Source: Planctomycetota bacterium
Lineage (GTDB): Bacteria; Planctomycetota; Planctomycetia; Pirellulales; Lacipirellulaceae
Direction: 5' to 3'
DNA length: 64,000 bases
Assembly (NCBI GenBank): GCA_024278955.1
Contig: JAJRSE010000080.1
Location: 1-64,000 of the forward strand
Shown: piece by piece, positions 208 to 5,880 of the stretch
How the letters are laid out: each line of letters begins with the position of its first letter
How positions within the stretch are numbered: the stretch's first letter is position 1
Made by a program: the position numbers and the translations under genes
Notes under the pieces: generated by a model
What the model was told of the DNA's origin: nothing
Seen by the model: only the letters and a program-made list of their open reading frames with translations
Databases searched by the model: none

Positions 208-281
208 GGGCGATTAGCTCAGTTGGCTAGAGCGCCACGTTTACACCGTGGACGTCGGGGGTTCGAGTCCCTCATCGCCCA
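208..281 (+). tRNA. tRNA-Val (anticodon UAC)
   Basis: A full cloverleaf can be drawn. The acceptor stem is GGGCGAT/ATCGCCC, followed by a D arm, an anticodon stem CCACG/CGTGG with loop TTTACAC giving anticodon TAC, and a T arm with TTCGAGT. The gene is intact although an element is inserted at its 3' end: the att core reconstitutes the T arm and acceptor stem. Its natural terminator has been displaced to 5886-5928. Confidence 0.95.
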
Positions 282-1674
282 CTAGTTGGAGTTGCAGGGG
301 GTCGCGTAACGTCGCTGACCCCTGCAATTCTAGCGTTTTCTTCACTTGGTGGTTTTTCCCCTGCAACGTCAAACTACCCCCTGCGAGCACAGACTGCGCC
401 GCATTTTGCGCCGCTTCGGCTTTGGTGGTTTCGCTCCCTGCTTCGTCGGTGGTCGTTCCTCTGCCGGTAGCTTGGTCGAAGTCCGATTCGGTCACTTGCC
501 AATAGTGCTTGTTCGCAATCGTAGTGCTATGCCCGAGCCATGCAGCAGCAACGTGGCCAGGATGCTCAGCAGCCAACTCTGTGGCACGACTAGCTCGAAG
601 ATTCGCAAACAGCTTCGGCCACGCCTCAAGCCCCGCCTTGGCGATGATGCGCTGTAGCTGTGTTCGCAGGTTTTGGTTGCATCCTCGATAGCGAGTGATA
701 ACGAATTGCGTACCCGGCTCGGCTTCATCCCACGCCTGTTCCAAATAAGAGCGTAGTTCAGGGAAGATCGGCATGATTCGCACCCCCTTGCCGTCGTGGT
801 GTTCGGTCTTGGAGCTACGCACAAGCATTCTGTTTTCAGCCCATCGTACGTCAGCCCATTGAAGTGCCAGCGTTTCTGAGGGGCATCGTAGCCCTGCGTA
901 GCGACTCAGTGCGAACAACAGCCGCCATTGCGAATCGGGGCAAGCCTCTAGCACCTTGGTTGCCATATCACGGGTCACGAAGAAATCACGCTCTCGGTTG
1001 CTGCCGACGGCACTTTTAAGCCCTGCGAACGGGTTTCGTTTCAACAAGTCGCGTTGCACCGCATCCTCGAAGAACTGTTTGGCGTTACTGATTCGTTTGC
1101 GCACCGTGTTGGGGGCTAGTCCAGAATCCGCGTCATTTTCGCCGTGCCGATGGTTGCGAGCCGCAGGCGTACCTAGCCAGCGCTCAAAATCTTTTGCATC
1201 ACCGACCGTGATAGAATCAATCGCCCGATTGGCTCCGAAGAATTCAATCAGGCACCGCTTGGAATGCCCCCAATTTAGTTGCGTACCGCGTTTCACGTCT
1301 ATTCTGGAAGCGACGTAGTTAGCCAAGTGCTGCCCCAGCGTCAACGATGCCGTCGATTCACGGGATTTAATCAGCTCAACACGGGCCAGCTTTTCTGCCA
1401 AGTCCGTGGAGAGCCTTGCAACCCATCGCGCCGTTTCGTCGCTTGGGCTACTCCCGGACAGCTTCGACGCAGCCAAGTCCTCGATGCGAAGCTTCACGCC
1501 CTCGGCTTGTCGCTTGCTCATCTTGCCAAGTCGAATCGTCTTGCGGTTGCCATCGGCGTCGACAAACAAAATACGACGTCGACCAGCGGGGTCGTTTGCT
1601 AGGGATGCCATGTTGATTCTATCCTTCCAATTGGTTGGTACTTTTGTGTTGTTCATTCTAGCAGCGAGTTGCAA
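241..1674 (-). CDS. Tyrosine-type site-specific integrase
   Basis: This 477-residue protein should integrate and excise the element at the tRNA-Val site. An SAM-like core-binding region spans about residues 110-215 and the catalytic domain about 230-395. Visible catalytic residues are R263 (AGLRCPSE), K289 (SSKTE), R360 (NLRASR), H382 (WLGHS) and nucleophile Y391 (KHYWQ). The usual box II histidine is replaced by A357. The last codons cross the attL core and end at a TAA in the antisense of the tRNA anticodon loop, giving the tail PPTSTV. In the excised circle the frame would instead continue for 61 codons into the sequence now at 5673-5857 (532 aa in total). The start is the first ATG; the internal M7 is also possible. 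Confidence 0.92.
   Translation of the reverse strand: MQLAARMNNTKVPTNWKDRINMASLANDPAGRRRILFVDADGNRKTIRLGKMSKRQAEGVKLRIEDLAASKLSGSSPSDETARWVARLSTDLAEKLARVELIKSRESTASLTLGQHLANYVASRIDVKRGTQLNWGHSKRCLIEFFGANRAIDSITVGDAKDFERWLGTPAARNHRHGENDADSGLAPNTVRKRISNAKQFFEDAVQRDLLKRNPFAGLKSAVGSNRERDFFVTRDMATKVLEACPDSQWRLLFALSRYAGLRCPSETLALQWADVRWAENRMLVRSSKTEHHDGKGVRIMPIFPELRSYLEQAWDEAEPGTQFVITRYRGCNQNLRTQLQRIIAKAGLEAWPKLFANLRASRATELAAEHPGHVAAAWLGHSTTIANKHYWQVTESDFDQATGRGTTTDEAGSETTKAEAAQNAAQSVLAGGSLTLQGKNHQVKKTLELQGSATLRDPLQLQLVGDEGLEPPTSTV
261..283 (+). repeat. attL core: 23-bp direct repeat in the tRNA 3' end
   Basis: These 23 bases are identical to 5858-5880, and the identity stops at once on both sides. 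The repeat covers the T loop, the 3' half of the acceptor stem and two bases beyond. This is the usual core of a tyrosine-integrase attachment site in a tRNA gene. It also encodes, on the minus strand, residues 465-471 of the integrase. Confidence 0.9.
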
Positions 1675-1763
1675 CAGGGCGCAAGCCGTGTTCTACGGTG
1701 CTATGCGGTTGCTTGGCCATTCCAAACAGGCCGTTCTCTAATCCAGTGTTTGCCACAGTCTTG

Positions 1764-1938
1764 CCAGAGTCCGCCAAGGTGAGAGTTTGGCGGACTCTGG
1801 AGGGACAACGTCGAATTCTAGCGAAAATTACACGACAGCAATTGCTAGCGGTTGCACTGCCTTGCACCCAGCAGTCTCGCCAAGGGGCTCTCTAAAATCC
1901 AGCGTTGGCGGACTCTGTAGGAGGTTGGCGGACTCTGG
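1764..1938. repeat. Four iteron-like repeats, candidate replication origin
   Basis: The motif TTGGCGGACTCTGG or its complement occurs at 1764-1777 (inverted), 1787-1800, 1905-1917 (13 of 14 bases) and 1925-1938. The first two form a perfect 14-bp hairpin with a 9-nt loop. The last two lie inside the final codons of the RepA-like gene. Iterons beside a RepA-type helicase gene suggest an origin recognised by an element-encoded initiator. Alternatively the hairpin could be a terminator or a regulatory site for the integrase gene. Confidence 0.55.
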
Positions 1939-5088: not shown

Positions 5089-5361
5089 TTACACCCACCT
5101 CCGTCTGGTGGCTTCGTTCGCGGCACTGTCGACCGACTTGCCGCTGACGCCAAATGCCTTGCCGGCTTCGTCGCGGGAGTCTGATTTAAGGTCCGGCCAA
5201 TTGGCCGGACCTTTAACGCCTTGACCCTTACTGAGTTTCTGCCGTTCCTTCGCCGCCTCACGAAAGTTGTCTGCCTTCGCAGCGGCTACTGCGCGTTGCG
5301 GGATGGTGAGTAATGCCGACCGCTCTGAAGTGGAGCGGTCGGCGAGTGGGTTACTTGGCAA
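5089..5361 (-). pseudogene. ParB/HTH-like remnant
   Basis: The 90-residue frame contains the stretch REAAKERQKLSKGQG and then RDEAGKAFGVSGKSVD. These resemble the HTH region of ParB-like and related plasmid/phage proteins. Those proteins are normally much longer, with an N-terminal nuclease-like or ParB domain and more sequence after the GVSGKSV motif. Here the frame starts just before the motif and stops 13 residues after it with an unrelated RRRWV tail. It is probably a truncated copy. A perfect 26-bp palindrome lies inside it. Confidence 0.5.
5188..5213. repeat. Perfect 26-bp palindrome
   Basis: Each 13-base half-site (AAGGTCCGGCCAA) is followed directly by its complement with no loop base, centred between 5200 and 5201. 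A short T-run follows on the plus strand. It could be a dimer-binding operator, a hairpin terminator for plus-strand transcription, or chance within the coding frame. Confidence 0.6.
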
Positions 5362-5672
5362 TAGTCAAAAGCTTTTGTGCATAGCTAAACGCCTTCCTGG
5401 CCCAACGGGCCCACGGGTGTCAAGGTTGCCCGATTGCTTCAAACCCCCGCCTTCGCTGGTCAAAATGGCCGCTCCTGGCCCCCTTAGTAGGACCCTAGGA
5501 AAACACCGTGTGAGAAAAAGTCCTTCGATCACTCCTGGCGGAGCCCCCGGGTATCCCCCCAGGAAGGACCCACCCATGTTTACCTAAACCCCCTCGAAAC
5601 TAGCGAAAAAATGTGCGCGACTTAGTGACGGTCTACAGGATCACGCCTTCCAGAGATTTGACCCGCCCCCCC
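5362..5672. other. Right-arm region of the element without a convincing gene
   Basis: The stretch is rich in G/C runs and short palindromes around 5400-5560. A 70-codon minus-strand frame exists at 5365-5577, but its Gly/Pro-rich composition looks non-coding. An imperfect copy of 5041-5068 ends at 5636, sharing GACGGTCTAC. Confidence 0.4.
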
Positions 5673-5879
5673 TCACTCACCCCGTGCCGCCCGAACCATG
5701 GCCAAGATGCCCGCTCGCACCGCCTTGGGCAACCCACTCCAAGCGTTGACGATGGCCAGCAGCTCAGGGTCGCTCAAAGCCGATTCTGCGCCGAGTGCGC
5801 CGGATTCTGCGCCGCCTTCGGAGAGGATTGCCATTTTCCTCGGGGTTTGGCATACCAGTTCGAGTCCCTCATCGCCCAC
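5673..5879 (-). pseudogene. Displaced 3' end of the integrase gene
   Basis: The frame begins with GTG inside the attR core and reads GDEGLE exactly as the integrase does at attL. The reading frame is the same relative to the core. It then continues for 61 codons (through DPELLAIVNAWSGLPKAV and AGILAMVRAARGE) to a stop at 5673. In the circular form this segment directly follows integrase codon 471, so it is best read as the native integrase C-terminus cut off by integration. In the integrated state it has no clear ribosome site and is probably not translated. Confidence 0.75.
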
Positions 5880-5880
5880 T
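5858..5880 (+). repeat. attR core: 23-bp direct repeat
   Basis: Identical to 261-283, this is the displaced original 3' end of the tRNA-Val gene. It is followed after 5 bp by the tRNA's original terminator. Confidence 0.9.

Follow-up and report, generated by a model that had tools for sequence, protein, structure and literature searches.

A planctomycete integrative element whose insertion into a tRNA gene is predicted to exchange the C-terminal tail of its own integrase

The 64,000-nucleotide stretch of DNA analysed here (the window; contig JAJRSE010000080.1 of the planctomycete assembly GCA_024278955.1) carries near its left end a small integrative element, inserted at a tRNA-Val gene, whose attachment core lies inside the reading frame of its own integrase. 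Integration is predicted to replace the tail of this enzyme by a few residues read from the antisense of the tRNA gene, and this exchange is strongly supported by the reading frames and common to a large family of integrases; that it acts as a switch on the enzyme is plausible. Specifically, the exchange between a resident form of 456 residues and a predicted circle-encoded form of 511 residues, the latter ending in a putative helical hairpin, likely retunes the integrase between the circle and the resident state, a reading to which a probability of about 0.6 is assigned. The features that carry the finding are the following:

208..282, plus strand: tRNA-Val(tac), the target gene, whole after insertion
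261..283, no strand: core of the left attachment site (attL), 23 bp
5858..5880, no strand: core of the right attachment site (attR), 23 bp
241..1611, minus strand: integrase (PF00589, PF13102), integrated form of 456 residues, with its C-terminal end GDEGLEPPTSTV in the tRNA antisense
5673..5857, minus strand: coding segment of the tail, 61 residues and a stop, left at attR and continuing the integrase frame in the predicted circle

The core GTTCGAGTCCCTCATCGCCCACT is identical at 261-283 and 5858-5880, with a spacing of 5,597 bp, and comprises the last bases of the tRNA-Val gene (261-282, its 3' end) plus one base past the tRNA end. Ordinary tRNA-targeting integrative elements likewise have the 3' end of the tRNA as core and leave the tRNA gene whole; their circle attachment site (attP) normally lies beside int, outside the int frame. 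The integrase frame of the window (241-1674, minus strand) continues across the core, enters the tRNA antisense and has its stop codon at 241, and the codon phase of the core is the same in this frame and in the frame 5673-5879, which agrees with the initial annotation of an integrase that runs through the 23-bp core and ends in PPTSTV. When the two frames are joined in silico, the result is a continuous open frame that starts with the TTG at 1674 and has 532 codons, and the 61 in-frame codons that had been proposed to follow the attR core up to a stop at 5673 are thereby recovered. The length of 532 residues given for the circle-encoded integrase stands for this open frame and not for the protein: the start of the homologues (MAS...) corresponds to the ATG at 1611, and the enzyme is therefore of 456 residues when integrated and of 511 residues in the predicted circle form. 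The proposal that only the tail is exchanged holds as well, 61 residues being traded for 6 (PPTSTV), in an arrangement that a large family shares.

The integrase scores 40.2 bits against PF00589 (cut-off 27.1) and 34.2 bits against PF13102 (cut-off 22.3) and, with a core-binding and a catalytic fold, belongs to the tyrosine recombinases; PF16795, the domain of the archaeal SSV-type enzymes (PMC8371274), was not among its Pfam matches at E 0.001. The catalytic domain, at residues 240-395 in the frame of 477 codons, lies entirely upstream of the core and within the integrated product, and HY is invariant across 55 integrase rows. For the homologue P0098, AlphaFold2 predicts an integrase that is ordered up to about residue 390, then a linker at 394-466 that is disordered and includes the core, and a hairpin at 479-503 with a predicted local distance difference test (pLDDT) score of about 74-86.

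A search with the predicted circle form returned 2,871 homologous proteins, and the counts given here refer to the best 120. A tRNA-antisense signature, taken from a hand-made pattern list, occurs within the last 140 residues of 104 of them, and 88 have their C-terminus at most 25 residues past it. The tail itself, whose presence among homologous integrases had been put forward as a check, follows the signature in 8 (seven clear, P0072 weak); the core is thus not the invariable end of the homologues, and the frame stays open across the junction. The tail-bearing proteins were first recognised from their C-termini, and six of the eight also contributed to the profile used to count them; P0072 (1.3e-4) was counted by eye, P0100 (8.7e-5), whose sequence continues differently, was left out, and some other homologues run on beyond the core with unrelated residues (e.g. 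P0012, P0083). All eight lie on contigs of 6-15 kb, as expected of circles.

A tail profile built from nine tails matches 87 places in 35 of the 43 genomes of the family of the window (E 1e-3), at least 146 of 396 genomes of the order and at least 48 of 294 genomes of a phylum sample (both E 1e-5), the last two figures being lower bounds with up to 15 and up to 20 candidates scored per genome, respectively, and many of the distant matches comprising the hairpin alone. The family tails are free of internal stops in 84 of 87 places, decayed tails being less readily detected, and a single one belongs to an open frame of more than 231 residues, which encodes a GH18 protein; the chromosomal tails are therefore split from their integrase. 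A region search that started from the P0089 tail returned P0089 itself and one further protein, a plasmid search gave two weak matches, neither reaching the tail, a phage search gave none, and the tail matched no Pfam family at E 0.001 and PDB sequences weakly at best (E 0.28). At two loci (L085, L089) the sequence upstream of the hairpin is of another kind and has CTxGCT-like peptides; these loci may represent a separate integrase clade with arm motifs of its own.

The retention of the frame was followed in integrases and tails that share a core. To this end, 120 stretches were taken, all but one around matches to the tail profile, and a pair was defined as an integrase downstream of the tail on the same strand with a shared core, which gave 23 pairs including that of the window. 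The codon phase agrees in all 23, and each tail matches its own integrase. The genes of Val, Glu, Met, Ser, Ala, Asn, Arg and Leu tRNAs serve as targets, and no tRNA was called at three of the pairs. The tRNA antisense is read in the GLE frame by 21 pairs and in the IRT frame by two; this assignment was calculated for 18 pairs and taken from the peptides for the other five. As judged from these sequences, the frame has been kept through insertions, deletions and changes of target. Left out were loci at which a contig end cuts the integrase (L055, L076, L127, L130, L134), loci whose longest common repeat is at most 11 nt (L066, L114, L221), and L115, whose 13-nt match represents the arm motif and whose two tRNA-like peptides are not the same. 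L118, whose longest repeat (37 nt) is a duplicated linker out of phase, was counted through a manually entered tRNA core, and L010 and L053, like L019 and L060, are the same loci and were counted once. Most of the remaining tails have no integrase of the family within the stretch taken.

The tail has two layers, a probable arm-type DNA site followed by a hairpin conserved at the protein level. The corresponding features, together with a second probable arm-type site in the integrase frame, are:

395..412, minus strand: probable arm-type site GGCGCAAAATGCGGCGCA in the integrase frame (within AAQNAAQ), 129 nt from the core
5796..5813, minus strand: probable arm-type site GGCGCAGAATCCGGCGCA in the tail, where it is translated as GAESGA; distance to the core 44 nt
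5676..5771, minus strand: helical hairpin conserved in the tail, beginning at DPELL and reaching to its end

The 18-base motif GGCGCARAATSCGGCGCA thus has one copy on each side of the core, read in different frames (AAQNAAQ and GAESGA), and no third copy occurs in the window within three mismatches; the pattern was derived from both copies, whose zero mismatches are by construction. With a simple pattern, 27 distinct copies were found in a set of 55 integrase frames that includes fragments and duplicates, and some alanine codons in these copies have invariant third positions. The distance of the motif from the core is 108-169 nt on the integrase side, in most cases about 130, and 40-52 nt on the tail side. 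The hexamer within the motif differs between elements (GGCGCA, GGTGCA, GGCACA) and is present on both sides in 17 of 19 pairs; it is identical on the two sides in 14 of these 17, against 7.9 expected from shuffling (P 2e-4), a statistic that covers GGCGCA-like hexamers in 19 pairs and ignores their relatedness. The paired motifs are probably arm-type sites for one protein, most likely the integrase, in which case the whole attP (arm, core, arm) would lie inside coding sequence. As for the hairpin, its diversity across 75 tails is highest at third codon positions (0.43, 0.30 and 0.56 at positions 1, 2 and 3), and three residues are nearly invariant (Leu40 in 75 tails, Trp47 in 74, Leu50 in 74). 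AlphaFold2 predicts the same hairpin for the tail of the window (three rows), with helices at 38-46 and 52-66, pLDDT of about 78-87 there and a mean of 66.7.

Fused genes are found outside the window. Viral contig searches returned one relative, none, and 22 relatives, and two of the 22, which are 99.9% alike over 12 kb, have a fused tail. An IMG/VR record of 64,283 bp, a larger virus-like record distinct from the element of the window, contains a fused frame of 520 codons with the same arm motifs flanking a core-like stretch, and it is probably circular because it has an exact 44-bp terminal repeat. Terminal repeats were absent from 14 loci inspected, eight of them whole contigs.

The element measures about 5.6 kb between the core copies and has its main genes on the minus strand, namely the integrase, an ATPase, two open reading frames (ORFs) of 124 and 289 residues and a small helix-turn-helix protein:

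1892..3391, minus strand: AAA_25 ATPase (PF13481), helicase-like according to PHROGs
3229..3603, minus strand: ORF of 124 residues without known function
3648..3830, minus strand: HTH_17 protein, candidate excisionase by inferred function
4036..4905, minus strand: ORF of 289 residues without known function

The HTH_17 protein matches excisionases in PHROGs (phrog_66, 2.9e-9; phrog_1840, 8e-4) and is a candidate for the direction factor of the element. None of the seven ORFs tested matched capsid or conjugation families (Pfam, PHROGs, E 0.001), and an Rfam scan of positions 1-8000 returned two tRNAs and nothing else. The joined flanks of the element matched all 43 family genomes, mostly by the tRNA part or a neighbouring gene among the matches listed, and none of these was a clean site in which both flanks meet without interruption; the sole match that extends past the tRNA (G016:C27) was rejected as an empty site, being another integrase that runs into a tRNA-Val(cac).

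Further likenesses were seen in the genome of the window itself. The right end of the element (5506-5717, 213 bp) is 91.5% identical to a site on another contig (G000:C91; L090 18285-18493), where the tail has the hairpin and lacks the core and the arm motif, and whose surroundings hold a different integrase-like fragment and a tRNA-His about 8 kb away; an exchange of element ends is a possible origin. About 40 bp directly outside attR (approximately 5948-5988) recur at more than 10 places in the genome, many of them some 100 bp away from the start of a contig, and are probably a dispersed repeat. Partial integrase pieces of the same family, one with an internal stop, lie at G000:C5:16258-16581 and C129:17871-18114 and are likely decayed copies.

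The initial annotation had likened the arrangement to the archaeal SSV-type integrases, but a closer counterpart is Myxococcus phage Mx8, whose attP lies inside int. Upon integration, int of Mx8 is reported to acquire a new 3' end without inactivation of the enzyme, the shortened Int remaining active with changed specificity (PMC6070905). A core inside int, in frame on both sides, and a new 3' end upon integration are also properties of the integrase of the window; in addition, the Mx8 Int frame (533 residues) contains a tRNA-antisense-like TGLEPVL at residue 416, 117 residues before its end, which is presumed to be the core. The two systems differ in their tails, which are unrelated (in Mx8 Int the tail profile reaches 1.0 bit and misses the inclusion threshold), and in their integrases, which show hardly any likeness (5.6 bits, E 3e-4 for a single sequence). 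Mx8 is a phage of 49.5 kb that has two attB sites, whereas the elements described here are small and insert at tRNA genes for eight or more amino acids. The archaeal SSV-type (suicidal) integrases also have the recombination site inside the gene, which integration breaks, and a review calls self-disrupting integrases exclusively archaeal (PMC8371274); their split separates the catalytic part, whereas in the window only the tail beyond the catalytic domain is exchanged. No mention of tail exchange in planctomycetes was found in the titles and abstract openings returned by the literature searches. The principle is thus already known from Mx8, a bacterial precedent, and what is new is a conserved tail, a probable attP in coding sequence, the many tRNA targets and the wide spread in one phylum.

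As for the working of the exchange, a single gene in the circle would encode the tailed enzyme; integration at the tRNA would cut this gene after the core, the resident copy would end in a few tRNA-antisense residues, and the tail would stay at attR without its gene. The tail-less protein would keep its catalytic competence, since the core comes after the catalytic domain, and the tail would alter the direction, the partner choice or the efficiency of recombination. The tailed circle form would favour integration, the tail likely aiding integration or restraining excision, and of the resident form one would expect less activity or joint action with the candidate excisionase. Retuning is favoured over inactivation because the catalytic domain is retained and the shortened Mx8 enzyme is reported as active. 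A more far-reaching version, namely a phylum-wide class of integrases with a complete attP in their own coding sequence and a circle-only helical domain as a direction key, in which a tandem neighbour can restore the tail, is tentative and has a less than even chance of being right.

Several observations weigh against the retuning of the integrase by its tail. The excised circle of the element remains a prediction, none having been seen, and the bias of tail-bearing homologues towards short contigs is not significant (contigs longer than 14.6 kb carry none of the 8 and 37 of the other 112; p 0.057, with a post hoc cut). The tail is not strictly bound to the circle: a chromosomal contig (L139, 16001-17668) carries a fused frame of 556 codons, 10 kb from a second integrase at a tRNA-Glu with the same core, probably as a tandem array in which the neighbour supplies the tail. 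Nor is the tail always joined, since L058 and L075 show an integrase, an in-frame stop and then the tail. Moreover, the 23 pairs are related and do not amount to 23 independent events, and the integrase frame is shortened in four of them (L057, 157 codons; L060, 128; L138, 236; L150, 161). Two copies of the motif are not rare by number, at least two being found in 11 of 100 shuffles; the GGAESGA part of the tail (0.30, 0.24 and 0.35 at the three codon positions) is conserved partly at the DNA level; and the ratio of nonsynonymous to synonymous substitution rates (dN/dS) over motif and hairpin has a median of 0.50 (2,534 pairs, dS <2), a moderate constraint, and reaches 1.93 in one close pair.

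The conservation of the arm motif as DNA and the median dN/dS would also be expected, as would the predicted disorder of the linker, if the exchange were a passive by-product of an attP packed into the 3' part of int, with the tail as the normal C-terminus, lost without any regulatory role. This explanation is unlikely, though the strongest of the alternatives: the hairpin is kept at the protein level (Leu, Trp, Leu) despite its loss at each integration, and the frame is retained in every pair. Rather less probable is that the tail-less integrase is inactive and locks itself in place, excision then requiring a full-length integrase from elsewhere; tails of relatives are common in these genomes, so that helpers in trans could exist, and such a rescue is described for archaeal SSV-type integrases (PMC8371274), but the modelled recombinase fold is intact after the cut and the truncation of Mx8 Int is reported as non-inactivating (PMC6070905). 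A tail that destabilises the circle-encoded integrase until integration stabilises it would have a precedent in mycobacteriophage BPs, in which attP lies inside the repressor gene and integration shortens the repressor (PMC4557955). The end lost there is an ssrA-like tag, whereas the integrase loses a predicted hairpin; the ends of the tails are variable, none of 87 ending in AA and one in two of A/V/L/I, and conservation sits in the internal hairpin, which makes a degradation tag very improbable. Lastly, although the integrated C-terminus is indeed tRNA antisense, the notion that ends of the GLEPPTSTV type are nothing else and that the tail is an accidental open frame can practically be dismissed, given tails fused in homologues, present in at least 146 of 396 genomes of the order and in phase in 23 of 23 pairs.

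The family shows that an integrase exchanging its own C-terminus upon integration, a principle known from Mx8 and, in a stronger form, from archaea, is both conserved and common in planctomycetes. With the tail, the core and the probable arm sites mapped, how an integrase registers its state of integration becomes testable. The exchange would also explain the ends of the GLEPxTS type seen in many integrases of the clade, and the tail left behind is a marker for the far end of such elements. If the hairpin does serve as a key to direction, the state of the DNA of the element would be read directly into the enzyme, and each integration would turn the integrating enzyme into the resident one.

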